NCBI GenBank assembly: GCA_022393335.1
Contig: JAJEKB010021263.1
Span: 1,571,227-1,635,226 of the forward strand
DNA: 64,000 nucleotides
Direction: 5' to 3'
Source: Macrotrachela quadricornifera
Lineage: Eukaryota > Rotifera > Eurotatoria > Philodinida > Philodinidae
The position numbers and the translations under genes are program-made. Positions 8,087 through 39,045 of this stretch are shown in pieces. Each line of letters begins with the position of its first letter. The first letter of the stretch is position 1. The notes under the pieces are model-generated. The model did not search any database, was not told the DNA's origin, and saw only the letters and a program-made list of their open reading frames with translations.

Positions 8087-9208
8087 TCAATGGCGATGGG
8101 GGGTATCGTTCAAGCCAAATACATTTATAAGACGTGTAATATAAGATGAAATATTAATTAACAATTGACAATTAAGATTATATTTTTTTTCTATATAATT
8201 ACTTGTTGTTAATATCAATTCTTTCATATTTATCATAGCTTTGGGAGTATCTAATGCATTACATAGTGCCAAATTAATATTTTTTACTGCCGTTGTCAAA
8301 GTTTCATTTAATTTTAAATCAGCTTCAGAATATGTATTACAAGCACTTGAATTATTTTTTATATGTAAATGTGTTTTAACATTAAGAAAAAATTCTTTAA
8401 TCATTTTTTTATAATCATCATTTTTTTTTATTTCATGATCACTATATTTCAATGATGTTGACCAAGAATTTAATAAAGATAATAGTCGAAGATTTATTGT
8501 ATCATATTTTTCAAGTACTTGTTCAATTGTTTCAAAGTTTTTAAATGAATTTGACATTTTACAATCAGCTATTTTTAAATGGATACAATGAAGAAAATAA
8601 ATAACCCATGAATCAAGATCCATATAACCTTCTGATTGTACTATATTAGCATCATGTGAACATTTCAATTTAATATCACTTGTATGTATAGCAAATGACA
8701 AACCTGAAGAAAAAAAAGAATAAGAGTTTGTTAGATGAAGAAAATTAAATTGAAAAAGACATTATTTCTTACCAAAAAATTTAGTTGCTAAAATGAAACA
8801 TCCAATATGTGAACTAGGCTGACCATCACTCCAAGGTGAACACCAAGATGGTTGACCTGGTTCACTTTTCTTCCAAAGGACAAAGTCATATGAATTTTTT
8901 TTCTCTTGATTTGTATCTTGAGTTGATAATGCAGCCATAGAACCTTGACTAAATTGAACTATATCACCTAATTGTTCTTTTTGTTGTAATTCAGCATCCG
9001 AATGTTGTTTTCTCAAAATATTCATTGAATCAAAATAAATCGACGAATATAAATCATACGCATATTTATTCTTAATAATTTTTTCAATAAATGGAACAAT
9101 ATCAGGAATATATTCACTAACATATTTTACTAAATTTGGTGGTAAAATATTTAAACGTACCATTGTTCCACATAATTTTGTTTCGTATTCACGATCCATA
9201 AACTTCAA
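8087..9208 (-). pseudogene. Degenerate cysteinyl-tRNA synthetase paralogue
   Basis: Two exons (9208-8773, 8703-8087) are separated by a 69-bp intron with GTAAG and TTCTTCAG borders. The translation follows the eukaryotic cytosolic CysRS: LNILPPNLVKYVSEYIPDIV, then SYDFVLWKKSEPGQPSW, then WVIYFLHCIHLKIADCKMSNS, then the anticodon-side helices (EFFLNVKTHL, ALCNALDTP). Key residues are lost. The ATP-binding KMSKS is KMSNS. The zinc/substrate segment normally rich in His (FPHHDNE) reads CSHDANI. HIEC reads HIGC. The Rossmann half with the HIGH motif was not found upstream. There is no convincing ATG before residue MDREYE at 9199, and the frame ends early in TGA TAA with coding-like sequence beyond. 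Aminoacylation is therefore very unlikely. A neofunctionalised fragment is possible, since most of the frame is open, but a pseudogene is the better call. Confidence 0.75.
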
Positions 9209-10442
9209 AATATAAAATATAAAAATTTAATAATAATTTTTACTTTATTATGTATATTGTGAATATTCATTATGTAGATAATTTTATAGTTAAAGTATAG
9301 TTGGAGAATTCTTCGAATACTATCAACGGATAAAAAATAACTGAAAATCAAAGATAAAATATAAATTATAAGGATTTAATAAAGGAAGTGGTCACTATAC
9401 CCTCTCCCGCAAAATTCTCGTTCTTTTAACAATAAAAATTACGAAATACTTCATATTTTCTAGTATTTTTCTACGTAAATGATTCTATTTTAAAAAATTG
9501 ATTTTTTCGCTGATAATAAAATGGGCCACAAAACGATTTCGTATTCCTATATTCTCATGTCAATTTCATTAAAAAAAATAATTGAAAAAACAAGAATCTA
9601 TCTGGAGGCATAGGCTATGGACAAAACCTATTTTTCTTACCGTAAATGATTAATATTTTGTAAATCAACATCAACTATACAATCACACCAACTGATGTTT
9701 TGGTTTTTTGAGGTACGTAATTGCTGCAAAGAAATTCATTAGCTCATTTAGAATTTGTTAATTTTTATTACCTTTTGTTTTTTTATGAAAGAATCATATA
9801 AGCAAACTGTTCCAGTTAATTTTTCCATTAATGTATAATTGGCTTATTAATATACAGAAATTAATATATATGCAATATATGATCCCTTCTTTTCCAATAG
9901 AGTACAATTTTTTTTTCTTTTATTCGTTAAGATACAGATAAAAATAACTAATGAAAGAAAATTTTTCGTTTTTTAAAGAAAAATAATCTCACTATACAAG
10001 TAACGTTCGTGGTTTCGACTCATTTAACCTTCGACTGTGGATGCCGGAACTCATTTTTTTACATGCACGAATGTAGGAAAAATTCACCTAGTATCTTTCC
10101 ACGAACAAGCCATTCAAATCGCTTTGCCTAACTCGTAACATTCCAACAAAAAGTACTCCATCTTTTTAAAAAATTATTTGGGATGAAACATATTTTTTGG
10201 CACAAGCTTGTACAATTCAAAACGCAGCTATATTTTTATTAATAGTTTATCCAGCATTTCAATTTAGGCGAGTTAAGATTCGCTTGACTTCATTGAAAAA
10301 ACATACTAATCAAAATATCTGCAAAACGTTTATTCACTCATAACATTCACGCATGACAGCTCTATCTGCGTTGCGGTAATATCATCAGTTCCATTCAGCA
10401 CTTTCAAATCAATCGCAACACTTGGAAATCTATACTATAAGA
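9209..10442. other. Intergenic apart from the possible orphan exon
   Basis: AT-rich. I looked here for the missing HIGH-containing exons of the CysRS-like gene and found none. Confidence 0.45.
9641..9723 (-). other. Possible orphan exon
   Basis: On the minus strand an 83-bp stretch is bounded by a strong acceptor (TTTCTTTGCAG) and donor (ACG|GTAAGA). It is open in one frame, giving QLRTSKNQNISWCDCIVDVD and then LQNINHL. It does not match CysRS, and its phase does not fit the exon at 9208. No partner exon was found. Confidence 0.3.
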
Positions 10443-20336: not shown

Positions 20337-23199
20337 TTACAATTGTTTCTTTATATTTTCCAAGTTATTCGTACATATTTGTAGATGTGGGTGATTCTCA
20401 GGTAGTAGACATCGCCCTATATTCAGAGCGTGTTTACAAAATGAAAGTGCTTTCTTATAGTCCTCCTTTTTGAAATACATACGACCGATATTATTGTAAC
20501 AACTAACAAAATCAGGATAACTTTGGGGAAGAGTTTCTGTCGAATTTCAAGTGCTTTTTCATAATATAAAAGTACTTTAGAATAATCCCCATGTTTTTAT
20601 ACACCAAACCGATATTATTGTAAGAAGTAGCCAAATCAGGATGACTTTGAGGAAGCGTTTTCTGTCGTATTTCAAGTGCTTTTTCATAATATGAAAGTGC
20701 TTTTGAATAATCACCCATGTTGTCATATACCAAACCAATATTATTGTATGAAGTAGCCAATTCAGGATGATTTTGAGGAAGAGTTTTTTGGCAGATTTCA
20801 TGTGCTTTATCATAATATGAAAGTGCTTTCGAATAATCATTCATTTTGTGATAGGACAAACTAATATTACTGTAACATTCAGCAAAATGAGGATGATTTT
20901 GAGGAAGATGCTTTTCGTACATTTCATGTGCTTTTTCATAATATGAAAGTGCTTTTGAATAAACACCCATGCTGTAATACACCAAACCAATGTTATTGTA
21001 AGAAGTAGCCAAATCAGGATGATTTTGAGGAAGCGTTTTCTGTCGTATTTCAAGTGCTTTTTCATAATATGAAAGTGCTTTTGAATAATCACCCATGTCG
21101 TAATACAAACCGCCAACATTACCGTAAGAAGTAGCCAAATGAGGATGATTTTGAGGAAGAGTCTTTTGACAGATTTCAAGTGCTTTTTCATAAAATGAAA
21201 GTGCTTTTGAATAATCACCCATTTTGTGATATGCCAAACTAATATTATTATAAGACGTAGCCAAATGAGGATGATTTTGAGGTAGAGTTTTTCGGTAGAT
21301 TTCTAGTGCTTTTTCATGAGATGAAAGTGCTTTTATATAATCACCCATGTTGTCATATACCAAACCAATATTATTGTATGAAGTAGCTAAATCAGGATGA
21401 TTTTGAGGAAGAATTTTGCGTCGTATTTCAAGTGCTTTTTCATAATATGAAAGTGCGTTTGAATAATCACCCATGTTGTCATATACCAAACCAATATTAG
21501 TGTAACATTCAGCCAAATGAGGATGATTTTGAGGAAGAACATTTTGGTCGATTTCACGCGCTTTTTCATAATATGAAAGGGCTTGTGAATAATCGCCCAT
21601 GCTGTAATATACCTCACCTATATCATTGTAAGATACCGCTAAATCAGAGTGTGTTGGAGGGAGAATCTTGTGACGAATTTGAATGGACTTTTCACAGTAT
21701 TTAATTGCTTCCACATATTCTCCTTGGGCATTCTTGACTTTTCCGAGCATATGAAAAATATTTGCTTCTTCAAGTTCATTAGGTTTTTGATCAAGCATAA
21801 TCTCAAACACCTGCTGAGCTTTATTGAACTTTCCAACTTTAATTAATAGATTACCCATACGATACCATCCTTTTAGATGCGGATATGTGTCTTTTCGTAT
21901 TTGTTCAGTTAAATTATGTAAATCCGGATCATTATCACTGGTTAGTGCTAATTTCACTTCCCACAGACGATTGTTGTTGTTGTCGATTTGTTCTATATTT
22001 GTAATTCGAAATACGGAATGCATGGAGAATAGAATTTCTTCTTCACCTTCAAAGAAACTAACGTCACGAATATTGGCAAAAGGTGTTGATGGTATCGACG
22101 TATCTATATTTATTTCAAAGAGAACGCCTATGAGATCAAAATTGCTTGTATTACTGTCAGCAAAAGCAAGAGATACTTGTCTATTCGTACTGGTAGATAA
22201 AAAATTATTAAAAGATAATAAACCACCTTTTGTGTTGAATAATTTATCGAAATCTTTTTGTGAAACACCTTGACCACGGTATACGATAAATTCGTTAGAA
22301 TGCGTATGACCAATAATTTGTTCGGAGTGAAGTTTTTCAATGTCCTTATGAAGATCTTTAACGAAGAAGCTCATATTCACAATGAGGTCTGCTTCCATCA
22401 TTCACAAAGCACGATTTAACATCGAATAAAGAAAACATGGGTAAGTATACCACCAGATTGGACGATGTTCGTGGTATTTGTTTTCTAGTTTATCAACATT
22501 TTTTAATTCGCTTGGATTACCAGCGAATTGTTCACGATAGTAGACAATGAAGTCGTTGATGTGCTGTTGTTCAAAATCAATTGTTAAAAGAATTTCCTTT
22601 TGTATCTGAGTATACATAAAGGATTGATCGAGTTGGTCAAGATTTATATTTTTTGCATCATCATTCGTGGCTACGAAGCTCATTGAAATGGTGCTTTGAT
22701 CACATCCGCAGATGGTCTGCTTTAGTGCTTCACATATTGGTTGGATATCTGTGAAGACACCCTTCATCTTTGCCCAACTATTCATCCATTGTTCATAGCG
22801 GACTTTGTTTTCACAAAAAATATAGATCGTACTGATCTGTGGCATTTCATGAACAATGGGTACTGTTGTTTGTCCAAGTATGTCCGATGAAATCATAAAT
22901 ATTTTTTCGTCTTTAATGTTACTGATAAAATTAATACATTCATCTGCAGTAGTGAATGTATGTACGGTGTTAATAACTTTTCTTAATTTGGACATTGTAT
23001 TGATACAATCGGCATTTTTCGCTTCATCGATACTGCTGTCGAGCCAAACTAGTATGTAATTTTGAACAGTACGATTATTTGTACGTTGTAATGGTTTTGT
23101 ACTTGTATTAGTGTTTTTAGATGGATTGTGCGTTTCTTTGGTCGTCTTGCTATCAATGAAACCACCAATTATTTCATTCGATTCGTCCATATTATTCAT
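20337..23199 (-). pseudogene. ADP-ribosyltransferase-TPR gene interrupted by one TGA and two 1-bp deletions
   Basis: From ATG at 23199 the frame encodes an N-terminal region (response-regulator-like strand pattern: NYILVWLDSS, IFMISSDILGQ, TIYIFCENKV), then a linker (HRPIWWYTYPCFLYSMLNRA). A TGA at 22402-22404 is codon 266. The frame then continues for 629 codons. It holds a mono-ADP-ribosyltransferase domain: FIVYRGQG (Arg308), SFNNFLSTSTNRQVSLAF, and FFEGEEEILFSMHSVFRI with the E-x-E. After it come about ten kinesin-light-chain-type TPRs of 42 residues. The last repeats need two 1-bp shifts (in the KNMG segment near 20587, and near 20535) to reach a natural end at TAA 20337. The paralogue at 55370 has Arg at the TGA position, so a CGA to TGA change is the simple explanation. 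ART-TPR proteins would transfer ADP-ribose from NAD+ to protein arginines; targets unknown. Confidence 0.85.
20560..21660 (-). repeat. Tandem 126-bp TPR-coding array
   Basis: Nine near-identical units encode LPQNHPDLATSYNNIGLVYD followed by a NMGDYSKALSYYEKALEIRQ-type helix pair. Units differ by few bases, pointing to recent unequal exchange or gene conversion within the array. Confidence 0.9.
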
Positions 23200-24057: not shown

Positions 24058-26600
24058 CTCTCATACTACCACCTGGGATCTTTTCGAACCTCAGACCACT
24101 TCCATTGTACTTAATTCTCATAGCATAATAGATTAATACCTCCACTTTTAGATATGCATTGATAGATGTTAGTTTTACTCATTGATGATATTTGTTTGTA
24201 CTTTTCGAGTATTGTTAATACAATAAAATATATTGAAATACGTATCAACGTATTTTTATCGATTCGGGTCTTAATAGATCCCAGAGAGTAGAGTTGATTA
24301 CACATAAATTATTGATGTGAGGTTATTAGCAGTGAATCGTTGATGGACTTATTTACTCATATAATGAATTTTATATCACTTCGATAGAATTTTTTGTAAG
24401 AGTTCGTGTCATCTTAAAATGTGTACTTGAAATTGCTTTATAATTTTAAATGTAGATTGTTCTATCCAATTATCAGAAACTGATGCACCCATTTTGCAAC
24501 TGATATATATCTCATATATGTATATTTATCATTTCTATGCAAGCTGTCATTCATATATGTGTATATTTTTCCTTCTGTTATTCAGTGTACATGTCGGGGA
24601 TATTCCCTTGATAGCCTTTATATCTCTCTGATGATGTAATATGTTTGTTAAGTTTTTACACTTCACTTCATCTGGAATATAATCCTAAAAATTTCCATTG
24701 GATGTTGATCCAATAACTATATAAATAGCTGATACTTTTCTATGAATAATTATTACGTGAAACAATCATTCCATCTCTTTGACAGACTTCTGATTACCAG
24801 ACTGGCATTAACATCTATAATTTTTTTGATACAATCTTTGCTGGAACCAAACCGATTGAAATCTTTATCCAATGGCTTCAAAGAGACCTTTCAACGAAGA
24901 TTGTGATGAAATTTCCGATGAAGACTATTCAGATAACGCCAATAGTCCCACCGACGATGAAAGTGATGATGAAGATTCGGAAATACTAAAGGATCTACAA
25001 AGTAATTCGGAAGGATCTGAAGAAACTTCCACAGATGAAGATGATTGGTAAGAAAAAGCTGGTATAAGTTCCGCGGAAAGTGAAAGTGAAGATGATAGTC
25101 ATGAAGAACCATCAACATACCGTTCCAAACTCGAATCTACGAGCCAACATGTTATAGCAATGAAATAGCATTGGACATTCAGCTGTTAAAATACAGACAG
25201 TGAAAGGCACTTTTCAACTATTATTTACAGAAGACACGGTATCTATCATTGTTAGAGAGACCAATAGACGTGCACAAACGATTGCTGCCGCATGGTCTGA
25301 ACGAAATTCCGAAAAAAAAGGGCAATGGGAGGATACCAATAGTAAAGAAATTTAGGCATTCATTGGATTATTGTTACTTACAAGTGTCCAACTATCTCAA
25401 AACGAACATATTGATGAATTATGGTCGACAAATACTGGCAGACCCATATTTCGAGCAACTTTATCAAAAAACCGTATGAACAGCTTAATTCGGTTTTGCA
25501 GATTTGATCATGCAACCACACGAGATACAAGCATCAAAACATATAAGCTAGCTCCAATCAGTGAATTTTGGACTCTCTTTTTAGCACAGCTGCAGATATG
25601 CTATATTTCTGGTGGTGAAATGATAAATGATGATTAACTTATACCTACCTCTAGCCAATGTATTATGCGCAACAAGCCTACGAAGTATGGAATAAAAATA
25701 TTTTGGTGCTGCGCACTTTTTTGACCCCGAATGGTGAACGTTCAGAAAAATCATCCATATTCTGTTTCGATAGAAATCGTAAACTAGTGATCTATGTGAC
25801 AAAGAAAAACCAAGCGGTGATTCTTGTTTCATTGATACATTACGACACGGCAGTTAGTGAAGATATACACAAGAAGCCGGAAATAATCTTATATTACAAT
25901 CAAACAAAAAGTGGTGTAGACCACATGGATCGAATGGTCCAAACTTATTCGTGTAAACGACAAATCAATAGATGGCCGATGATATTTTTTTTAATATGCT
26001 TGATGTAGCGAGTATTGTAGCCTTTATTATATGGACCACGAAAAATTTTCAGTGAAGCCATGACAAGTTGTTTCGTCGACGATTATTTCTTCAACAACTA
26101 GGCCAGAGCCTTGTTGATGTTCATCTCAATCAACGTTACCAGAATCCGAAAGCAGTTCATCAAGGTATTCGATTAGCTGTGCAGAGTCTCGGTCTTTCAA
26201 TAACCCATCCGACAACTCCTGGATCGAAAACAGGTAGAAGATGATGTTGTTGACTCTGTTCAAGATCACATGATAAAAAAGTCGCTATGCAATGCTCAAC
26301 CTGTTACTTTTCTTATTGTTCGAATCATCGTAAAATAATTTGTGATATGTGCTTAGGATCTTTTAATGAAGATAAGAAAAAAAAGAAGAAATAAAGAAAA
26401 GAGACTGCTAGAAAATGGCACGATAAGATCTTTTTCTTTTGATTTACGTTAGTCTGTAATGCTCTTTCATATGTAATCATCATACTTACTCTACAGCTTG
26501 ATAGAAATATTACTCTTTTTCCCTAATTCAAAATTGAGATGGGATCCGTAACGATCCCAATCAAGAAAAAGTTTAGTGTTGGCAGGTGATAGTAAGAGGG
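24058..26600 (+). mobile_element. Dead piggyBac transposon, 2.5 kb
   Basis: The element is flanked by the piggyBac-typical TTAA on both sides (24054-24057 and 26601-26604). The terminal inverted repeats are CTCTCATACTACCACCTG at the left and CCCTCTTACTATCACCTG (complement) at the right, 15 of 18 identical. A broken transposase reads left to right inside. Confidence 0.9.
24872..26394 (+). pseudogene. piggyBac transposase, broken
   Basis: An acidic N-terminus (MASKRPFNEDCDEISDEDYS) stops at TAA 25049. The DDE_Tnp_1_7-like part follows in several frames: AFIGLLLLTSVQLSQNEHID, then LWSTNTGRPIFRATLSKNRM, then NSLIRFCRFDHATTRD. Next come fragments of the catalytic core (NKPTKYGIKIF) with part of the core deleted, then KPEIILYYNQTKSGVDHMDR and YSCKRQINRWPMIFF. 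A C-terminal Cys-rich domain (CSTCYFSYCSNHRKIICDMC) ends at TAA 26394. Several stops, frameshifts and an internal deletion show that it cannot encode an active enzyme. Confidence 0.85.
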
Positions 26601-26604
26601 TTAA

Positions 26605-27620
26605 AACTTGGTGAAATTATATCATAAAAAATATGTGGGACAAACGAACATAAAACCTTGAAACTCGATTATTTAACTTTGTCATAATGTTAATTGAATC
26701 CGAATATTTATCATTTCAGATCAATATGTTGATTTTATCAACATATATATCTTTTTTAACAAGATTTTGTTCAACAATTTCTTTCTATTATTGAAAACAT
26801 TACTCAATTTGACTTAATCTAATTATATATTTGCAATAATCGATTCAAATATGAGCTATTTTTCCAAGAGATATGCAAGAACTTCGAAGAAAAATCTACA
26901 TGTTACTTGTGTGTTCATGGTGCTTTCTTGTCAAATAGCCTTCTTTGACATCTTAACTAACTTTAAATTCAAACGCAAACAGTACATCTTGTAGTCCTGA
27001 GTGAGCTCTATAAAACAGTATATCTCGATATTGTGAAACGGATATACCATTGACAGATGAATTCGAAGTGTGATATCTTAAGTGTGGGCAAACATGACTA
27101 TGAAAACTCCTTTCTTTTCCGAAAAAGACGATGAAGTAATTAGGTGAAAATTGGTGTACCATCCTAAATATCGACACTCTTGTAGTAAAAGGGTAATTGC
27201 ACGAACTTTCCGGACAACCTAATATTAAATCATGCCAATTACTTTAACATAATGATCTAATTTTTTTTTCGAATACAATGCTGAAGAATGCCTTTATTAC
27301 TTATGTGGTGATATGTAGATATACGTCATCAATGGTGTAAATATTACATCATTTTAGATATAAAACAATGGATGATAATGATATATTTAATGCTAATAAT
27401 GAAGTCGCAATTATACCGAATAAGATTCTTTAAATATAAAGATAACTGATAAAATAGTCATAACGTAGTCAAATAATGGAATGATAAACGAGATTAAATG
27501 AAAGTTTTTTTAACAGGTGAATGTCACGCCACATCGTACGATATTTTAAATAGAAAAAAAAAAAAGTTTTCAAAGTTGATAAGAGATTTATTTGATATTT
27601 TATTTATAAATAAAATTTAA
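26605..27620. other. Intergenic, nothing recognised
   Basis: AT-rich sequence between the piggyBac element and the 3' end of the FAD monooxygenase gene. Short frames on the minus strand lack any recognisable domain. Confidence 0.45.
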
Positions 27621-29270
27621 TTAAAAAGTTTTTTTTATTATATTTAAATAATTTTTAATAAATGAATAAAAAATTTTAAAGAAAAATTTTGGTTTTAATA
27701 ATGTATATGGAGATTTTTCTTGAAAAACAACATGTATAAAAGCTGTTGTTAATTCTCCTGATTGTTCTGCACATTTAATTAACCAATATGTATACCATTG
27801 TAAAAATTTCATAAATAATGGTATTTTTGGTTGAAAATGACTTGATAGTAAATTATTTTGATTTCTTTGATAAGTTTTTATTAAACCATATTTATCTATT
27901 TTAATAAATTTTAATGTTGGTACAGCCCAATCATTTGTTATTGAAGTAAGCCAACATTCTTCAGTAATTAATGAAGCTTGTTTATTATAAATAAATGATA
28001 TATTTTTTAAAGAAATTTTTTTTTTAAATATTTTATTTAATTGTTTTGCTTGTCGACATGCATGTGTCATACCTTGACCATTTTTAGGATTAAATACACA
28101 CATTGAATCACCTAATAAAATAAAATTTTTTGGCCATTTTTTACCTAATAATTCAACATATTTTCTATGATCAAATGCACGTCTATATGGTAATAATGGA
28201 CTTAAAATTTTTGTTGATTTTAATATTAAATAATAATCAATAGGTAAATATTCTTTAATCCATTCTAAAAGATTTTCATATGAATCATTTGGTGGATATT
28301 CACCATTTACACAATAAACAGCAAAATTTGATATTAATCCTAATGAATTTATATCAGAAGTTTTTATTTTACGAATTGGTATTGTAAGAAAACCTTTATT
28401 ATAATGTGGAGCATGAGCGGCATTTCCACCAATATGTATTGAATCTAATAATAAATTTCCTGTTTTAAATCTTTCACCAACAAATGAAACATAACCTGTT
28501 CCAACATGTAATTGTTCAGTTGGAATAATTAAATTAAAATTTTGTTTTAACCATTTAATAGATGATGTATATCTTCCAGTACAATCAATTATAAAATCTC
28601 CATATAAATCATTTTGTAAATCGAAATTTAATTTTGAACGATATTTAATACCAAGAACAGAATTATTTGATTGATTAACAATTAATTGTATTACTTTAGT
28701 ATTACATATCCATTGAATTTGTTGATTATTATATTGTAAACATAATTCTTTTCTTAAAACAGTTTCTAATGTAAAACGATCAATACAAAACCAATAAAGA
28801 TCTTCAGTTAAATTTTTATTTAATAAACTATCACCAATTATAAAACGAAATTGATTTTTTAATGATGATATATGAGCACCATATTCATTAATTAATTTAT
28901 TTTTTAAATTTGGAAATAATTCAAATAAAATTTTACTTCCTTCACCTTGTAAAACATGTATTTGATAATTTTGATTAACACCTGAACGTCCTAATGAATT
29001 TGAATTTTTTAAATTACATCGATAATTTAATAATTCTTCAGGTGTTGATTTCATTAATATATCATTTAAAACATCATCACTTTCTATTATTGTTATTCGT
29101 TTAAAATATTTTGTTAAATAAGCAGCAGTTGTCATACCAGCAATACTTCCACCCATAATTATAGCATGGTCATATTTGATATCTAAATTATCTTTTATTA
29201 ATTTATTTCTATGAATTTTGTACAAAATTATTCCGATAATAATAATAATAAATAATATAATCCAATACAT
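27621..29270 (-). CDS. Membrane-anchored FAD-dependent monooxygenase (epoxidase-like)
   Basis: 549 aa, intronless. Residues 2-17 form an N-terminal membrane anchor (MYWIILFIIIIIGIILYKIH). The FAD dinucleotide-binding strand is DHAIIMGGSIAGMTTAAYL (GGSIAG at 40-45), followed by an acidic ribose-binding end (TIIESDD). NQNYQIHVLQGEGSKILFEL corresponds to the PQGRH.H.L..G....E.L.P block of bacterial FAD epoxidases and oxidoreductases. The second FAD motif is FILLGDSMCVFNPKNGQGM (GD and the GQGM loop). It is not a standard animal squalene monooxygenase, whose C-terminal motif differs. The start is the first ATG, at 29270. It lies 265 bp downstream of the oxidosqualene cyclase on the same strand, and I infer that it could epoxidise squalene or modify the cyclised product. 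Bacterial ancestry is likely but untested. Base composition matches the neighbours. Confidence 0.75.
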   Translation of the reverse strand: MYWIILFIIIIIGIILYKIHRNKLIKDNLDIKYDHAIIMGGSIAGMTTAAYLTKYFKRITIIESDDVLNDILMKSTPEELLNYRCNLKNSNSLGRSGVNQNYQIHVLQGEGSKILFELFPNLKNKLINEYGAHISSLKNQFRFIIGDSLLNKNLTEDLYWFCIDRFTLETVLRKELCLQYNNQQIQWICNTKVIQLIVNQSNNSVLGIKYRSKLNFDLQNDLYGDFIIDCTGRYTSSIKWLKQNFNLIIPTEQLHVGTGYVSFVGERFKTGNLLLDSIHIGGNAAHAPHYNKGFLTIPIRKIKTSDINSLGLISNFAVYCVNGEYPPNDSYENLLEWIKEYLPIDYYLILKSTKILSPLLPYRRAFDHRKYVELLGKKWPKNFILLGDSMCVFNPKNGQGMTHACRQAKQLNKIFKKKISLKNISFIYNKQASLITEECWLTSITNDWAVPTLKFIKIDKYGLIKTYQRNQNNLLSSHFQPKIPLFMKFLQWYTYWLIKCAEQSGELTTAFIHVVFQEKSPYTLLKPKFFFKIFYSFIKNYLNIIKKTF

Positions 29271-29535
29271 TATTAATAGAAAATAATATTATGAATAAAG
29301 AAAAACATTTTATATCGTTTTTTAGAATAGATAGGATGATTTTTTTACAAACATCTGGTGATATACTTTTCTCGTGTATTCATTGGATATATATATATTT
29401 TTTTTTTGTTATTTAAGATCATGCCATAATGATGAGTTTTACTCATATCATTTATCTTATAACTATATTTAACTATTATAAACTTTTTTTTTTCTTTATT
29501 AAAACAAATGAAAATATGTTATAAAAAAAAACAAA
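29271..29535. other. 265-bp spacer between the two triterpene genes
   Basis: AT-rich spacer between stop of the cyclase (29536) and start of the monooxygenase (29270). It is long enough for an independent promoter, and contains the sequence ATCATGCCATAAT at 29419-29431. Confidence 0.6.
29418..29433 (-). promoter_or_regulatory. Candidate upstream element, copy 1
   Basis: ATCATGCCATAAT (plus-strand reading) lies about 150 bp upstream of the monooxygenase ATG. A copy with one difference, ATCACGCCATAAT, lies at 31828-31840 about 135 bp upstream of the cyclase ATG, in the same orientation. Shared position and sequence suggest a common regulator; chance is not excluded. Confidence 0.35.
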
Positions 29536-31695
29536 TTATTGTTGTTTAATAAATCTTCCTAAAGCCCAAATAGGAAAAATATTTCTATAATTAGTATAAC
29601 TAATCATACAATTTCCATTAAAAACTCCACTAATACCATCTTGATTCCATTCTCCATTTGAAGATTGTTTATTAATTATAAATTGAATACCTTTACGAAT
29701 AATATTTATATCTGCTTTTGCAGATATTAATGATAAAATAGCCCAAGCTGTATTTATAACTTGAGATTGTTTATGATGAATATATGTTTTATAAACACAA
29801 CTTAAATAAGATTCTCCCCAACCACCATCTTGATTTTGTTTTGAAAGTAAAAATTCAACAGCTTTTGTAATTATTTTTGATTTTGGTGATTCACCAACTG
29901 TAATTAATGCTTCAATAGCAAACCATGTACCATATGTAAAACATACAGCCCAACTTCCATACCAACTTCCATCTGATTGTTGTTTTTTTTTAATAAATTC
30001 AATTCCACATTGAATTGCAATATCAATTTCTTTATATCTATAATTTAAAAATTGTTTTGATAAACGAAATTTCCATAATGCTTGTATACAAGCTGAAGTA
30101 CATTCTATATATGAATAATCAATCATTATTCCTTGAAATACTTCAGCAGGATTTAACCATTCTATCCAAATTCCTGAACGTTGAAGTTCATATGATGCCC
30201 AACCCCCATCTTTATTTTGTGTACTAAGAATAAAATCAATTGAATATTCTAAACGATCAGATGTTATTGTATGTGGACAATTAAATATTTGTTCATGTAA
30301 TAATAATGTTGTTTTAAGTCCTTCGGCAGTACAATCTGTTATTGGCCAACCATGATCACGTGTTGAAAAAGGCCATCCACCTTTTGATATATGACGATAA
30401 AATTTTTTATAATCTTTAACATCTTCTAAAACTTGACTTATATCTATATAATTATAAGCTAAATTTATAGAATTTGAAAATAAATGTGCTAATCCTGTTT
30501 CTAAAATAGCTTGAACTGAAAAAACAGTATCCCATAATTGTGAACCATTATAACCTTGAATTTTCATACCATCTTCACTTAACCATAAATAATCATTAAC
30601 ACGATTTAAATGTAATTGAAATTGTTTACTATGATGTCCTTTTGAATACCATATTGATAACATATTTATAAATTTATTAACAGGACCAATATTAATATAA
30701 TTTGTATGTTCATCTTCAGCTTCAATATAATTAATTAAAAATTCACTTGCTTTTTTACGTATATATTGATTATAAATAGTTTCATAAGTATTTGTAAAAA
30801 AATTTAATATTTTTAATAAATTTGTTTGAGGTGTATATAAATCTAATGAACTAATTGAATTTTTATATTGAGTAAAATCAATATTTTCATATTTTTCAAT
30901 ATATAATTCATTTCTTAATTGTAAAATAAGTGGAGTGATTTCTCCAACAATTTTTTCAGCATAAACATAACTCATTGGTAAATAAACCATTCTACAATGA
31001 CACCAATATCGAGAAGGATGAAATGGTAACCATTCAGGTAATAACCATAATTCAGGAAATAATGAATTAACACCTTCCCATGGCATTACACCTAAAACAC
31101 ATAACCAAAATTTTGCCCAACTTGGTGCATACATAGCGCCACCTTCTAGTTGAATAAAGTTATAAGCATTTTGTATTTTTTCATGTTGAAATGGTATTCC
31201 TAATAATCTTAATGATATATAATTTAATACAGTACCAAACATAGTTGATTTATTTTCAATATGAGTACCCCAACCACCATCAATTAATTGATGATTAAAT
31301 AAATATTTAATCATTTCAGATTTTTGTTCTTCTGTAAATTCAAATTTAGTTATATATGATGTTATTATTGCACCAGGTAATAAAAACATTGGTCCACCAT
31401 AATCTCCTGGCCAATGACCATCATCAACTTGTAATGATGAATAATGATTTATTCCATTTAATAGACATTTTATTACTGATGATGATAATTCATCGTTAAA
31501 TAAAGGAATTTTTAATTTTTCATATTGATTTTCATCAATATTTAATGGTTTATAATTTTGTTCAATTGCATATTGACGAAAAATTTTATCATTACTATTT
31601 GGATTTTCTTTATTAAAATCAATTGAAATTGAATTTTCATTTTTAAAATATTTCCATATTTGTTGACCACGATCACAAATTAATCGCCATGCCAT
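29536..31695 (-). CDS. Oxidosqualene cyclase, cycloartenol-synthase type
   Basis: 719 aa, intronless, ATG at 31695 (MAWRLICDRGQQIWKYF). Full-length for the family. It would cyclise 2,3-oxidosqualene to a protosterol. The catalytic motif is GWPITDCTAEGLK with Asp454 as the proton donor in DCTAE, the hallmark of oxidosqualene rather than squalene-hopene cyclases (DXDDTA). Other blocks are DDGHWPGDYGGPMFLLPG, WCHCRMVYLPMSYVYAEK, MKIQGYNGSQLWDTVFSVQ and several QW repeats (QDG/QNKDGGW, QSDGSWYGSW, QNQDGGWGESY). Two product-determining positions read Tyr382 (GYNGSQ) and Ile452 (PITDC). This is the cycloartenol-synthase state; animal and fungal lanosterol synthases have Thr and Val there. Together with the plant/protist-like wording, this points to a non-metazoan origin. 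A co-oriented FAD monooxygenase follows. Confidence 0.92.
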   Translation of the reverse strand: MAWRLICDRGQQIWKYFKNENSISIDFNKENPNSNDKIFRQYAIEQNYKPLNIDENQYEKLKIPLFNDELSSSVIKCLLNGINHYSSLQVDDGHWPGDYGGPMFLLPGAIITSYITKFEFTEEQKSEMIKYLFNHQLIDGGWGTHIENKSTMFGTVLNYISLRLLGIPFQHEKIQNAYNFIQLEGGAMYAPSWAKFWLCVLGVMPWEGVNSLFPELWLLPEWLPFHPSRYWCHCRMVYLPMSYVYAEKIVGEITPLILQLRNELYIEKYENIDFTQYKNSISSLDLYTPQTNLLKILNFFTNTYETIYNQYIRKKASEFLINYIEAEDEHTNYINIGPVNKFINMLSIWYSKGHHSKQFQLHLNRVNDYLWLSEDGMKIQGYNGSQLWDTVFSVQAILETGLAHLFSNSINLAYNYIDISQVLEDVKDYKKFYRHISKGGWPFSTRDHGWPITDCTAEGLKTTLLLHEQIFNCPHTITSDRLEYSIDFILSTQNKDGGWASYELQRSGIWIEWLNPAEVFQGIMIDYSYIECTSACIQALWKFRLSKQFLNYRYKEIDIAIQCGIEFIKKKQQSDGSWYGSWAVCFTYGTWFAIEALITVGESPKSKIITKAVEFLLSKQNQDGGWGESYLSCVYKTYIHHKQSQVINTAWAILSLISAKADINIIRKGIQFIINKQSSNGEWNQDGISGVFNGNCMISYTNYRNIFPIWALGRFIKQQ

Positions 31696-31843: not shown

Positions 31844-33476
31844 CGATTGATTAGACTTTTAATGATTATTCTAGAAAACTTAATAAGATTTTATCAGTTT
31901 TTGTCAACATTTGTTGAATTATTATTTGAAATATTTTTGATAGAGACACTATTAAGAAAAATGTTGAAAGTTTCATTTCAACTTCAGTTTGATTATTAAT
32001 TAATTTTTCACTTGTTGATGACTGTATATTTTGTTCGAATATGATTGCATTTGATCATACGTCTAAGCAATAGAAGCAACGAAATAGTAGCTATTCCTAT
32101 CTTCCAGTCATAGTTTTTAATATTTATTAGAATCTCTTGAATATATCTGTTGTAGAATCTGCATATTTTTCATGACTATGATCTTGACTATACTACGAGC
32201 ATGATCAACATGGAAACAGCTTGCATTTTTTTCGAATCCAACGAGATTGAATTGAAGTTCAGTATTTTTCCTCTGGAAAAGTTACTTGTACAAAGTTTCT
32301 ATTGAAAAATGACGAGTATATGATTTTAAATCACATATATATCTTTAAAAAACAGTACATTATATACATAAAGATCTCGATTATAAGTATGATCAAATTA
32401 CTCTTTTAGGTGATGATAAATCAACGGATAGAAGAAAAACAAGTAAAATTTATCACACAGTCTCGCTTGGTCCTTTACCGTCAATTAAATTTTTCATATA
32501 GGTAATGCTACATCCAGTTCGAACTTCAATCTTCCATATTTTGTGATTTACGAAGCCAGATTATTAATTTCAAACTCGAAAGTTATAATGTACTCGCCGT
32601 TCTCTCATAATAGATCACATCGTTTCTATTTTATAGAATATTAATAAATTGTTGAAATCAGTAATGCGATTAGAATTCGTACTTCATTGAAGCATTCAAA
32701 AAAGAAACCCTAATCGACTCGTCTCCAGAGAATCGCCAAGAAATTCATTCAAAACTTCACCATTCCTGATGAATCTTGAGGAAGCCACCATATAGAGACT
32801 CCTCAAAGAGTTTTCTTTTTCTGGATTTAATTCTGTTAAGTGCATAAATGTTTCGAAAAGATATTAATATATATATTTTTAAATACAATCATATGATTAA
32901 CTGTAGACACTTCCGACTGGTATAAAAAGAAGAAAGAAGCTGAAGTCAAAGTATTAGACATTTTTTTTAAGCTAGAAAGTAAAATAAAAACACATTTATT
33001 TTGAAAGACAATGTATGTACAAACTGTAGATTAAAGTTTCATTATTAAAACAACGTTTTTTCATAGAAGTAAATTATCGTCTAATATTTTTAGAGTTCAT
33101 GGCATTTTTCAATGACACTATCATTGAAATTTTTCTTCAGTACAGTACATCGATATATATATATCGGCAGATAGATTATCTATCTATCTATCAGTATACT
33201 TTAGTGGAAGCAAAATTTCAGTCATAATATCACTGAAATATGTCATGTATTGGGTCATAATAACTTATTCTTCACATTTCAAGCCATTCCTGAAACAATT
33301 CCTGGAGATTCCTTAGAAACTTCCTCTGAAATCCCACAGAAGTTCATGTCAAGAAGTCCCGGAAAATTTTAGTGGGGATTCTTCTTGGATTAAACAAGGG
33401 CGGCTAATATCAATCTTGCAAGTCAATCATTAGTCATTTACGAGAGTGAGGGTGGCCTCAAAAATTTTCGATAAAT
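31844..33476. other. Intergenic; a small TATC microsatellite
   Basis: AT-rich. A short run of TATC repeats occurs near 33176-33193. No gene recognised. Confidence 0.45.
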
Positions 33477-33481
33477 GCCGA

Positions 33482-33839
33482 TATTAGAGGATGACATATA
33501 TCATCCTCTCGTTCTTCATATATGTCTTTTCTTTCTGTTCTTCATATGTCACATATGTTCACATCTCTTATCTGTTCTGTTAACATATGTGAATATACGA
33601 TGATGTATGTTCTACATTTCATCATCTATATTTTTGTCCATCTTCATTTCATCATCTTTTCGCATTGTCCATCCTCATTTCATCATTTTTCTTATTGTCC
33701 ATCTTCATTTCATCATCTTTTCTTTGTTGGATTTCGTCATATCTTTCTCTTGGTTCATCCCAGTATTTATAGTTCTGATTTATTTGCAATAAATCATTCA
33801 CTCACCAGTCATCTTCTATCATCGATCAACCCGCTCACA
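33482..33839 (+). repeat. 5' LTR, 358 bp
   Basis: It matches 38678-39045 almost throughout and ends CCCGCTCACA. The first bases are TATTAGAGG where the 3' LTR has TGTTAGAGG, so the canonical TG start is mutated here. It is rich in pyrimidines with repeated TTTCATCATC stretches. A TATTTATAG near 33764-33772 could be the promoter TATA region. Confidence 0.92.
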
Positions 33840-33841
33840 TT

Positions 33842-33859
33842 TGGTGCCGTGACCTGATT
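33842..33859 (+). other. Primer-binding site
   Basis: TGGTGCCGTGACCTGATT begins two bases after the 5' LTR; TGG is the expected complement of a tRNA CCA end. The tRNA species was not determined. Confidence 0.6.
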
Positions 33860-33947
33860 CGACGACATTCAACAACACGACGAACAACATCGAAGAAACC
33901 AGCGTTTCCCAACGACTATCTCGTGCTGTGTGGTTTATCCAGACTGA

Positions 33948-35153
33948 ATGCCAAGTCGAGTCCTTCGTAGCAATCCAGAGAGAACAGATCGACTACTAGA
34001 GTTTTCACGTGATATAGAAGAGAGCGGCATATCACCACAACAACATACATCTGGTGAATTGGAACGAGACGTTACGGATCAAACAATGGAGTCAAAAACA
34101 CTGGAACAAACAGTAAGTGCTACAATGGATCTCCAGATGGTGATGAAAATGCTACAGAAAATGCAAGCTGAGTCTAGCGAGGGATTTAAAGAGATAAAGG
34201 AGTTCAAGGAGGAGGTTCGGTATCGCGTTGAACAAGTGGATTCAAAAATGGAACATCTGGCTGCGAGAATGGTACAAGGCGAAAATCACCGAACACAAGA
34301 GATGAAGAACATACAGGATCAGAACAATGCTATAAAACTGACCAACTCAACAAGTTTGGCATCTACCGATCAATTGGTATCATCAGGTAAGGGTTACAAT
34401 TTAACATCGTCAAGTCAAAATCTTCTTCGAATGGCACTTGACAAACAAATCGACGAGTTGAAGCCATACTATGGCAAGAAGCAAGAGAATGTTGAGCTAT
34501 GGATTAAAAAGATCGACAAACTGGCAGACATCGCGAAGATGCCGGATGATGAAGTGTTTTTGTTAGCCCAATTAAAACTGCAAGGAGATGCCGAGATGTG
34601 GTGGGAGAATAAGAGGAAAGAAGTGGCTTCATGGCGGACACTAAAGAGTAAGTTACTGGACACCTTCGGACCGCTCGGTAAATCAAACAGACTGGAGCTA
34701 GAAGCGCTTCTTCATCGTCGACAACAAAACCTGAACGAACCAGCAACCAAATATTGGAATGATATGATGAGCCTATGTTCAGTATATGATGAAAACATGC
34801 CTACACAAGATCGGGTATGGCGAATCGTCAGTGGGGCGTTGCCAGAGTTCCGGTACAAGTACGAAAACAAGACCTTCGATGATGTTGATCAACTTCTCAA
34901 AGTATTGATCCAACATGAAGAAGGTAGACTGCGAGCTTCATATGACGAGCAAGAACATCATGGGCAGATGACCAACGCCGTACAAGGTTCTCACAATGTG
35001 GCATGGAAGCATCAGCAATTCTCCGAAGCTGTTGATCAAGCAGCAAACAGACAACAACGACCACAGTGGAACAATCGATCGGGGAACATGCAGCAGTACA
35101 AGAACCGATCTGATGGCAACAAAGACCACCAAACTTCCAAGTACCCAAACTAG
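33948..35153 (+). CDS. gag: Retrotransposon gag polyprotein
   Basis: 401 aa from ATG 33948 to TAG 35151-35153. The N-terminal part is charged and coiled-coil-like (MVMKMLQKMQAESSEGFKEI). The central capsid-like region has the retrotransposon-gag pattern (LLAQLKLQGDAEMWWENKRK, SWRTLKSKLLDTFGPLG, ALLHRRQQNLNEPATKYWND). The C-terminus is Gln/Asn/Arg-rich, likely nucleic-acid-binding, without a CCHC zinc knuckle. Gag would assemble the particle that packages the element RNA. The last codons form the frameshift site into pol. Confidence 0.9.
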   Translation: MPSRVLRSNPERTDRLLEFSRDIEESGISPQQHTSGELERDVTDQTMESKTLEQTVSATMDLQMVMKMLQKMQAESSEGFKEIKEFKEEVRYRVEQVDSKMEHLAARMVQGENHRTQEMKNIQDQNNAIKLTNSTSLASTDQLVSSGKGYNLTSSSQNLLRMALDKQIDELKPYYGKKQENVELWIKKIDKLADIAKMPDDEVFLLAQLKLQGDAEMWWENKRKEVASWRTLKSKLLDTFGPLGKSNRLELEALLHRRQQNLNEPATKYWNDMMSLCSVYDENMPTQDRVWRIVSGALPEFRYKYENKTFDDVDQLLKVLIQHEEGRLRASYDEQEHHGQMTNAVQGSHNVAWKHQQFSEAVDQAANRQQRPQWNNRSGNMQQYKNRSDGNKDHQTSKYPN

Positions 35154-35188
35154 ATCTGGGGCCGTCGAAGGATGGCGACGACCCCAGA
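35144..35188 (+). promoter_or_regulatory. -1 ribosomal frameshift signal at gag/pol junction
   Basis: The heptamer C CCA AAC (35144-35150) is in the correct phase of gag and is followed directly by the gag stop TAG. After 4 bases comes a hairpin. TCTGGGG (35155-35161) pairs with CCCCAGA (35182-35188). One C/A mismatch follows. CGTCG (35163-35167) then pairs with CGACG (35176-35180) around an 8-base loop. Pol is in the -1 frame and has no start codon of its own; its frame is open only from 35114, after a TGA at 35111. All parts of a canonical signal are present. Confidence 0.85.
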
Positions 35189-38100
35189 AACACGAACATC
35201 AAACATCCATCCTTGTTTTATATCACTGCCCTAGTCAATCAACAACCCTTACAAGTCCTTGTGGATACTGGCGCTCATCAAACCTTCATCTCAAACAAAA
35301 TAGTTCAACGACTTGGTCTACAACTGGTACATGGTCATAAGCAGAACCACTGGCTTGCTGATGGCATCACACCATTTGTAACTAACGGTGAAGTGAACTT
35401 GTCTATGAAATTGGGAAGAGTAGAAACAACGGTTCTGGCATCTGTGGCTCAAACGCTGTCATGTTCCTGCATTTTAGGTGTGGACTGGATCCGGGACAAC
35501 AATGTTTCAATACTTACACATGAAAGTCGGATTGCCATGTTCAATAAACAAGGGAACGAGACTGCATCAGTGGCGATGGAATTGGGTGGAGATGGCAGTA
35601 AAACAAACCTGGCTATTGGTACTTTCTCTATCCAGCCCAAGTCCAATGTAACGCAGATGATTGAGGACCTGTCGGCTCATCTGGAACTTATGCCGCAACA
35701 ACAGCAAGTGAAGAGTCTTCTAGGTAATTTTGAGGCAATCTTCGATGTCTCTATTCCTACAAAAGCTACGACGGCGATGTTTCACACGATCGATACTGGA
35801 GAAGTGCAGCCCATCGTCGAGCGAACTCGAATCCAATCAAAGTTTCAAAAGGGAGAAACGAAGAAACATGTGGAGATCATGCTAGCAGCTGGGCAAATTG
35901 TTCATTCAAATTCACCGTGGGCAGCACCTGTGCACATCGTCAAGAAACCAGATGGTTCAACAAGGTTTACAGTGGATTATCGCAAGCTCAACAGTGCGAC
36001 GATCAAGGACAACTATCCCCTGCCGTCAATCTCTGAAACAATCAATCAACTGCAGGGTCATGGCTACTACACCAAGATGGATCTAAAGAGTGGTTACCTG
36101 CAGATTCCGATCTTGGAGCGGGATCAATCCAAAACAGCCTTCATTACTAGAGATGGCTTGTACCACTTCAAAGTTCTGCCTGCTGGATTGAAGAATGCTC
36201 CGCCGACGTTTCAGCGGATCATGAATACCATTGTTGTGCAAGGTCGTGAACAGTACTGTTTGGTCTATCTGGACGATATTATAGTATTCTCAAAGTCGTT
36301 CAATGATCACCTTGGACACGTGAGAGAAGTCCTTGCAGCACTACACAAGCACCAGTTCCAGCTCAACCCACCGAAATGTGAGTTTTTTAAATCTAGGATG
36401 AAGTATCTGGGGCATATGGTTGATGCAAATGGGATGAGGCCGTTGGATGACAAGATCGAGACCATTCAACAGCTACCGATGCCAACTACACTCCGCGAAG
36501 CAAACTACTTTATTGGAGCTCTAGGGTTTTATCGTAAGTTTATTAAGAACTTCGCGCAAATGGCAGCGCCAATACATCGCACCACCAACTTACACAAGCG
36601 GCATCATCGTGAGTTTACCTGGGGACCAGAGCAAGTTAACGCATTCAACCAGTTAAAAGTGGCTATTTCAACAACACCACTGGTGCTCGATTTTCCTGAT
36701 GATAACTCACCACTGATCTTGTCGACTGATGCTTCAGACATTGGAATTGGTGGAGTCCTCAAGCAAATAACACCCGATGGTGTTCGAGTCATCTACTATC
36801 ATTCCCAACTGCTTAACTCTGCTCAAAAGCAATATGCAACTATTGAGAAGGAAGCCTTGCCAGTGTTCAAATGTGTGGAAAAGCTTCGTCCTTACTTGCT
36901 TGGCCGTGACTTCATCATCGAGACAGATCACTGCACCTTATGCAACTTTCACAAAAAGGGATCCAAGAACCGACGAGTGGACAGCTGGTCATTAATTCTC
37001 TCAGAGTACAACATCCAAGAAGTGCGTTACAAGAAGGGCAAGCGCAATTGTGATGCTGATCTTGCATCTAGATTCCCAATTGGAACACCAGATACAGTGG
37101 TAAAAGAAGATCAGCTTATAACACCAAGGCGGACTTGTATTAATGTGGTGACTCAGGCTGCTGCAGCACGCATCAAGTCTTTGGAATCTGATACTCAATT
37201 ACCATCTACAAACTTATCAAAATGCTCACCTGACTGGAAACGTAATGGTATGGATTCTGAAGAAATCGATAACAATGACGCATCGACTATGCTATTATCA
37301 ACTTCAAAAGATGGACGCTCACCATTGGATCTGGTACGAATCAAGGAAGCACAACAACAGGATAGAACCATACGAGAACACATTAAGAAACCACCTGAAG
37401 GTATGGTAATCAATGATGGCATCTTATATCAACTATGCAGCAGCAGAAGGGGTAAACAAATGGTTCCATATATTCCTAAATCTCTGGTTCCAGAAGTTCT
37501 GGCTGTGGCTCATACTCATCAATTTTCAGCACATTTTGGACGAGACAAGACTTTTGGAAAACTTAAAGGTCGATGCTTTTGGCCTGGGATGTGTGCAGCA
37601 ATTCAAACTTACGTAAAAGAGTGTCAAGCATGTACAAGATTCAACACCAGACGGCAAAAACCACCTGGACATCTACACTCAATCGAGCCTCCTTCTGAAA
37701 TCTTCAACCTGGTGGGATTGGATTTCTAGGGACCAGTTCAAGAATCAAATAACGGAAACAAATACGTCATTGTCCTCACAGATTATCTATCAAAATTCGT
37801 TGTAGCAAAAGCTCTTCTAACATGTACGGCACAACTGACAGCGGAATTTATAGTGGAAACGGCTTTAACTTTCGGAGTCCCAAGTCAACTTCTCACAGAT
37901 AACGGCACACATTTTAAAAATGAACTGTTCCAATGTCTGAACAAGCTTCTGGGTTTTAAACATATACTGTCAACGCCTTACCATCCGCAAACCAACGGCC
38001 AAACGGAAAGATGGAATGCAACGATGAGACCGAAGTTGGCGATGCTGTGTGAAAACAATGAATCCAATTGGGATGATTTTCTACCTGGAGTGGTGCACGC

Positions 38101-38521
38101 ATACAATACCAGCGTTCATGCTACAACTGGCTACTCGCCATCATTCCTGATGTTTGGGCGTGAGATTCCTTTGGCTTTTGATGCAGCTAGACCGGTCCTA
38201 CAGATGCCTAAGATCTCAGATTATGCTGAACATCTATCGAGATATCGGAAGGTAGTGTTGGACGCAACTAAAAACAATGTTCGACGGTACCAGCAAATGG
38301 CAAAACAGCGGTATGATCATAATCGACAAGCACCAATCTATGAAATTGGTCAACTAGTCTTCGCAAAACGGCGTGGTAGTCGAAACAAGTTCGAAGAAAG
38401 ACACTCGGGGCCCTTCCGAATCATCGATAAGTTGGATAACAATCATTTAACTTATGTAATCAAAAGTGACCATGAAGCAAGTCAATACCAAGTACACGTC
38501 AACGACCTGGTGTCTTGCTAG
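35150..38521 (+). CDS. pol: Retrotransposon pol polyprotein, one in-frame stop
   Basis: Read by -1 frameshift from gag. In order: aspartic protease (VLVDTGAHQTFIS, near 35255), reverse transcriptase (DYRKLNSATIKDNYPLPSI, LVYLDDIIVFSKS near 36265), RNase H (LILSTDASDIGIGGVLKQ near 36715), integrase zinc finger (HTHQFSAHFGRDK...CQAC) and core (LLTDNGTHFKNE; HPQTNGQTERWN near 37983). The C-terminus reads HSGPFRIIDKL and VHVNDLVSC. A TAG at 37727-37729 interrupts the frame at the start of the integrase core, where the family usually has Trp. The frame then continues without other breaks to TAG 38521. The single nonsense codon should remove a functional integrase from this copy. Confidence 0.9.
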
Positions 38522-38663
38522 ATGGTTTATTCACTAAACCACGAACATAGTTAATTAACATTCATCGAGTTGCACATCAACGTACTGTGTCCACAAATAC
38601 CAACCATCTGTGGCTCTCTTCTGATCTTGCAAAATTTGGACATTCGCGTGGACGCTCATCTCA

Positions 38664-38677
38664 TGGAAACGGGGAGG
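38664..38677 (+). other. Polypurine tract
   Basis: TGGAAACGGGGAGG directly precedes the 3' LTR, as expected for the plus-strand primer. Confidence 0.8.
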
Positions 38678-39045
38678 TGTTAGAGGATGACATATATCAT
38701 CCTCTCGTTCTTCATATATGTCTTTTCTTTCTGTTCTTCATATGTCACATATGTTCACATCTCTTATCTGTTCTGTTAACATATGTGAATATACGATGAT
38801 GTATGTTCTACATTTCATCATCTATATTTTTGTCCATCTTCATTTCATCATCTTTTCGCATTGTCCATCCTCATTTCATCATTTTTCTTATTGTCCATCT
38901 TCGTTTCATCATCTTTTCTTTGTTGGATTTCGTCATATCTTTCTCTTGGTTCATCCCAGTATTTATAGTTCTGATTTCTTTGCAATAAATCATTCACTCA
39001 CTAGTCATCTTCTCTCATCTTCTATCATCGAGCAACCCGCTCACA
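38678..39045 (+). repeat. 3' LTR, 368 bp
   Basis: Begins TGTTAGAGG and ends CTCACA, with TG..CA termini. It is 10 bp longer than the 5' LTR because of a short duplication of a TCTCATCT-type stretch near 39010-39020. Confidence 0.92.

Follow-up and report, generated by a model that had tools for sequence, protein, structure and literature searches.

A candidate squalene-to-cycloartenol gene pair, with a MonCI/Lsd18-type monooxygenase as putative squalene epoxidase, in a bdelloid rotifer

Introduction

Does a pair of neighbouring genes in the bdelloid rotifer Macrotrachela quadricornifera encode an entry into sterol synthesis, and where did it come from? One gene encodes an oxidosqualene cyclase (OSC), the other a flavin adenine dinucleotide (FAD)-dependent monooxygenase of the MonCI/Lsd18 type. 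They lie in a stretch of 64,000 nucleotides, referred to here as the window (positions 1571227-1635226 of contig C4609, JAJEKB010021263.1), in a genome of 450,031,034 bases. As far as is known, animals either possess a squalene epoxidase together with a lanosterol synthase or no longer make sterols, and the enzyme class of MonCI is not known to act on squalene. No title or abstract on a bdelloid OSC or on a MonCI-type squalene epoxidase was found in literature listings, which do not cover subscription papers.

We propose, with a probability of roughly 0.55, that the pair is a squalene-to-cycloartenol module in which the MonCI-type enzyme replaces squalene epoxidase, and that bdelloids owe at least part of this entry into sterol synthesis to horizontal transfer. 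The broader notion that bdelloids possess a third class of squalene epoxidase, drawn from the MonCI/Lsd18 family and feeding a horizontally acquired cycloartenol-type OSC, i.e., a plant-like sterol route in an animal, is put forward tentatively, at slightly less than even odds.

The gene pair and its recurrence in bdelloids

Both genes are on the minus strand, and each runs from an ATG to a stop codon in one frame without introns. The OSC (29536-31695; 719 aa, with a DCTAE motif at residues 454-458) is followed, after an intergenic spacer of 265 bp (29271-29535), by the monooxygenase (27621-29270; 549 aa), the proposed squalene epoxidase. That is, the arrangement described in an earlier note on this DNA, of an intact intronless OSC with an FAD monooxygenase 265 bp further on the same strand, is borne out by both reading frames and by the gap. 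Downstream of each stop codon, on the same strand, there is an AATAAA (29495-29500 for the OSC, 27599-27604 for the monooxygenase) that may act as a poly(A) signal; the two genes thus need not have a common transcript.

Contig C4522 carries a second, syntenic copy of the region, which is taken to be the other haplotype. Window positions 20.2-33.0 kb align to it in blocks of 89-98% identity, and the pair is present there too, with both proteins full length and 98% identical and a spacer that is also 265 bp long. In the protein collection, the closest OSC proteins are 17 sequences (P0001-P0017) at 66-84% identity, of which those labelled with an organism belong to Adineta or Rotaria; the closest monooxygenases are 92 sequences at 47-83% identity, the labelled ones from Adineta, Rotaria or Didymodactylos. 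Six bacterial or unlabelled monooxygenase matches follow, five of them at 22-26% identity over most of the protein.

When 20 OSC sequences were compared with 24 monooxygenase sequences, six further bdelloid-clade pairs were found on contigs of equal size, which serves as a proxy for linkage; adjacency was seen directly in the window's genome, and through consecutive locus tags in Adineta vaga (I4U23_003469 and 003470, on an 18-Mb contig). The seven known linked monooxygenase copies form one clade, and their linkage has been kept across OSC identities of 65-84%. The monooxygenase tree holds 76 of 99 proteins, i.e., 98 matches and the window protein, the rest having been dropped by length except P0212 and P0218, which were removed by hand. 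OSC and monooxygenase distances correlate at 0.94 (21 non-independent comparisons among 7 pairs). Because the pairing is repeated in the syntenic copy and in six bdelloid-clade pairs, we consider it more than chance; in other bdelloids, where the earlier note had suggested a check of synteny, the pair recurs by these measures.

The oxidosqualene cyclase

The cyclase scores 701.1 bits against TIGR01787, above the cut-off of 322.7, and is thus assigned to the sterol-type OSCs; against TIGR03463 it scores 687.5 bits, below that profile's own cut-off of 851. It matches both SQHop_cyclase Pfams and aligns to human lanosterol synthase (LSS) across residues 75-716. Asp455, Cys456, Cys533, His232, Tyr503 and Phe696 (human numbering), which we take to be catalytic, are present in all 18 bdelloid-clade sequences. 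Seventeen positions were checked altogether. At the 14 that do not discriminate between cycloartenol and lanosterol synthases, the window OSC agrees with human LSS, and so do 18 of 18 bdelloid-clade sequences, save for Phe444 (17 of 18, with one gap). Tyr381, His449 and Ile453, by human LSS numbering, are all three of the cycloartenol type in the window OSC. Within the bdelloid clade, Tyr381 and His449 occur in 18 of 18 sequences and Ile453 in 17, with Val at this position in P0016. A figure legend in PMC4919349 gives Ile at 453 as a marker of cycloartenol synthase.

Judged by these residues, the predicted product is most likely cycloartenol. The bdelloid OSC has the Tyr/His/Ile set and the catalytic residues in common with the cycloartenol synthases of plants and some bacteria, but sits in an animal, where cycloartenol formation is a prediction. 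For Adineta vaga, PMC12220480 lists an expressed gene that carries PF00432; it need not be this OSC, because protein prenyltransferases also carry that domain.

The larger of two OSC trees contained 189 sequences: 116 of 120 listed proteins (those of at least 600 aa), 70 of 80 bacterial OSC loci (ten were dropped as they held no OSC frame), the window, human LSS and one plant. The smaller one used 48 of the 189, and its bootstrap had not settled. Rooted on the plant, the trees place the window OSC in a clade with metagenome proteins, bacterial OSCs and two protist transcriptome sequences, with human LSS, the sole animal representative and on a long branch, outside. A position within the animal lanosterol synthases, the counter-case raised by the earlier note, was rejected as far as this one animal sequence can stand for them: the approximately unbiased test excluded grouping the window OSC with human LSS (p 0.0154). 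No close relative of the OSC or of the monooxygenase from other animal groups was found among the matches listed, and the viral contigs searched gave no match for either. The OSC is probably foreign to the bdelloid lineage. Outside the bdelloid clade, the sequences closest to it are P0019, P0023, P0024 and P0030; the donor, or another animal group, may be among them. The larger clade also takes in the two protist sequences, P0073 and P0074, and given this placement a eukaryotic donor is possible.

The monooxygenase

The only Pfam family matched by the monooxygenase at an E-value of 0.001 or better is PF04820 (35.4 bits). It has no match to PF08491 at E 0.001, and a canonical squalene epoxidase was therefore rejected as its identity, in agreement with the earlier note, which had called it a non-standard squalene monooxygenase. 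Over its full length, profile similarity to MonCI and Lsd18 reaches 4e-64 and 1.8e-63, the profile including 5 bacterial sequences; a single-sequence search against this family gave 3.3e-13. The predicted fold is that of MonCI/Lsd18, which are nearer to it than any other class A monooxygenase listed. All 36 sequences compared have His105; in the alignment with MonCI it stands opposite a histidine, and it probably corresponds to the flavin-stacking His71 of Lsd18.

MonCI and Lsd18 (LasC), the epoxidases of polyether polyketides in Streptomyces and of a type familiar from the making of antibiotics, have the fold, the profile, a glycine-rich FAD motif and probably the conserved histidine in common with the bdelloid enzyme, which differs from them in its N-terminal helix, in an identity of just about 19% and in having a triterpene cyclase as neighbour. 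Unlike in their setting, no polyketide gene was seen among the window frames scanned. Both epoxidise farnesyl esters in vitro, their reported substrates being linear polyenes, and both add several epoxides to one molecule. The N-terminal helix occupies residues 2-24 of an AlphaFold model and coincides with a hydrophobic run in the reading frame (29199-29267, minus strand). Of the N-terminal membrane anchor previously suggested, the helix is present in the model; it may serve for anchoring.

With SQLE/ERG1, the enzymes of PF08491, the monooxygenase has the class A flavin monooxygenase fold in common, and the same reaction is proposed for it, but it lacks the PF08491 match. At the place of the GD-x-LNMRHP-x-TGGG block of 8 bacterial squalene epoxidases, the bdelloid protein has GDSMCVFNPKNGQGM. 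Replacement of the canonical enzyme in a eukaryote is also reportedly achieved by AltSQE of diatoms, said to be a fatty-acid-hydroxylase-type protein and no flavoenzyme.

Comparison with bacterial OSC loci

In 40 of the 70 bacterial loci that contain an OSC frame, a FAD frame bearing a GAGMAG motif lies downstream of the OSC, on the same strand and within 128 bp, and ten loci of Bacteroidota have a FAD frame at 1.2-1.75 kb on the opposite strand. Within 6 kb of the OSC, a FAD-motif frame is present in 52 of the 70 and absent in 18. Ten of 54 FAD frames were scanned, 2 of them from the 40 same-strand loci, and 9 of these 10 are PF08491 squalene epoxidases. In the sampled bacteria the position beside the OSC is thus often held by a squalene epoxidase, and the bdelloids would have an epoxidase of a different type there. 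That is, the bacterial loci (mainly Methylococcaceae and Bacteroidota) resemble the bdelloid one in the closeness of epoxidase and cyclase genes, but theirs are of the PF08491 kind, whereas that of the bdelloid is MonCI-type and lies in an animal genome. A tblastn search of the 80 loci with the monooxygenase and seven of its relatives returned four weak matches (21-23% identity), to the relatives only: a PF08491 frame in L021, a GAGMAG frame in L026, and two more in L012 and L018. Separately, the Bacteroidales locus L021 has a second FAD gene (8556-9851) directly upstream of the OSC, besides its squalene epoxidase; its best NCBIfam match, below the cut-off, is the geranylgeranyl reductase family.

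Proposed pathway and alternative explanations

In the proposed pathway, the rotifer would make squalene with a squalene synthase of its own. The monooxygenase would form a C4a-hydroperoxyflavin and epoxidise a terminal double bond of squalene, yielding 2,3-oxidosqualene in place of a canonical squalene epoxidase. The OSC would then protonate the epoxide via the Asp of DCTAE and fold 2,3-oxidosqualene to a product of the protosterol type, for which cycloartenol is the likeliest candidate. Substrate, product and order of steps are those suggested by the family assignments.

The genome was searched in six frames, exon by exon. In one such search, in which two candidates were scored, PF08491 was unmatched at E 0.001 in the 450 Mb, and so the check for a canonical squalene monooxygenase elsewhere in the genome found none, in a search that may miss intron-split genes. 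The controls matched in E. coli and Caulobacter, presumably via related FAD hydroxylases; no eukaryote is among those named. The notion of an alternative epoxidase requires such an outcome, and in the proposed pathway the canonical squalene epoxidase would be truly absent from the genome. The same kind of search found squalene synthase as a single frame of 455 aa, in two copies, with a match to the human enzyme at 1e-91; another SQS_PSY gene was matched in two pieces. The squalene synthase gene (L099:1141-2508) is a single open frame whose product has an N-terminal extension with a hydrophobic stretch.

Several observations weigh against the squalene-to-cycloartenol reading. The PF08491 controls match in two bacteria whereas this genome gave no match at all, so that an intron-split squalene epoxidase could have been missed; the two-piece SQS_PSY match does not demonstrate otherwise. 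Activity of the monooxygenase on squalene is something that we infer; the view of the earlier note that it may be an alternative squalene epoxidase gains from the search for a canonical enzyme but stays conditional as to substrate. Besides the low identity to Lsd18 and MonCI, the 50 structural matches listed do not include human squalene epoxidase, and in Foldseek it ranks (3.2e-17) scarcely above halogenases and hydroxylases (1.7e-16); it was not upheld as a special structural neighbour, and beyond the MonCI family nothing therefore favours squalene specifically. The genome holds 20 monooxygenase matches, i.e., the window gene, its 98% copy, about ten at 54-67% (counting haplotype copies; stops interrupt some of them, and one is split in two) and pieces that are shorter or broken. 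Among the fetched flanks (at most 1.5 kb, some ended by contig ends), an OSC adjoins just the window gene and the 98% copy, which argues that the family also has another role. The window monooxygenase itself has no tblastn match in the 80 bacterial OSC loci (flanks of at most 10 kb, many shorter). Between the two copies, the ratio of nonsynonymous to synonymous substitution rates (dN/dS) comes to 0.41 in the monooxygenase and to 0.66 in OSC residues 310-719, values that carry little information because they stem from 19 and 15 differences, respectively. The unlinked relatives at L083-L096, several with stops, make up a multi-copy MonCI-type family without an OSC in the fetched flanks; such unlinked paralogues are a main weakness of the reading.

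The most serious alternative, although an unlikely one, is that the monooxygenase works after the OSC, as a tailoring enzyme (epoxidase or hydroxylase) on its triterpenol product, or that it adds a second epoxide to give 2,3;22,23-dioxidosqualene, the first being set by an undetected enzyme. Repeated epoxidation, as by MonCI and Lsd18, would naturally lead an enzyme of this kind to dioxidosqualene; the family is outside PF08491, and an intron-split squalene epoxidase may have escaped the genome search. Yet the OSC needs oxidosqualene, no canonical squalene epoxidase was found in that search, and MonCI and Lsd18 are reported to act on linear polyenes.

Less probable still is adjacency without a common pathway, i.e., two foreign-looking genes in a transposon-rich region, the monooxygenase having an unrelated role as in its unlinked bdelloid paralogues. 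The many unlinked family members, the mobile elements on both sides of the pair and the lack of a bacterial precedent, in the sampled loci, for this family beside an OSC would all fit. Linkage in a single clade of seven copies that diverge in step with their OSCs, across the identities given above, counts against it. A contaminating or bacterial contig, to which the intronless genes and the want of close relatives from other animal groups among the matches listed might point, has been refuted and retains a negligible probability: the window lies at 1.57-1.64 Mb of its contig in a 450-Mb genome, with an F-box frame and a domain of the nuclear receptor type close by, and the pair is repeated in the second copy and on the 18-Mb contig of Adineta vaga.

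The squalene-to-cycloartenol module accounts for the most and is our preferred reading. As to its origin, joint transfer of the pair from a sterol-making bacterium was set aside, since none of the loci seen supports it and the window monooxygenase is unmatched in all 80. Of the transferred two-gene pathway envisaged in the earlier note, the part that stands is an OSC set apart from human LSS; the pair itself may have been assembled inside bdelloids.

Plant methyltransferase 1 uses cycloartenol as its substrate. If the proposed pathway is true, it makes testable how bdelloids source their sterols and why they keep sterol methyltransferases, as well as how a committed pathway step gets replaced, and it would bear on whether steranes derived from cycloartenol can be read as markers of plants or algae. 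For Adineta, Rotaria and Didymodactylos, PMC10692144 describes many sterol methyltransferase genes and favours vertical descent for them.

Genomic setting

Scanned frames near the pair include a cysteinyl-tRNA synthetase piece, a nuclear receptor ligand domain, TPR proteins, a peroxiredoxin, a pyridine-nucleotide oxidoreductase piece and an F-box frame. Mobile elements flank the pair: upstream there is a retrotransposon, and downstream a fragment of a piggyBac-like transposase (DDE_Tnp_1_7; 25658-26008). The former is a long terminal repeat element (33500-38950), Ty3/gypsy-like by reading, with gag at 33948-35153, pol at 35114-37729, integrase at 37730-38521 and the same 30-bp repeat array close to each end. 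Homology to 20 kb of the C4522 copy ends at 33016, and the retrotransposon may thus be absent there. A TPR gene at 20484-21633 contains a 126-bp tandem repeat in about nine copies.

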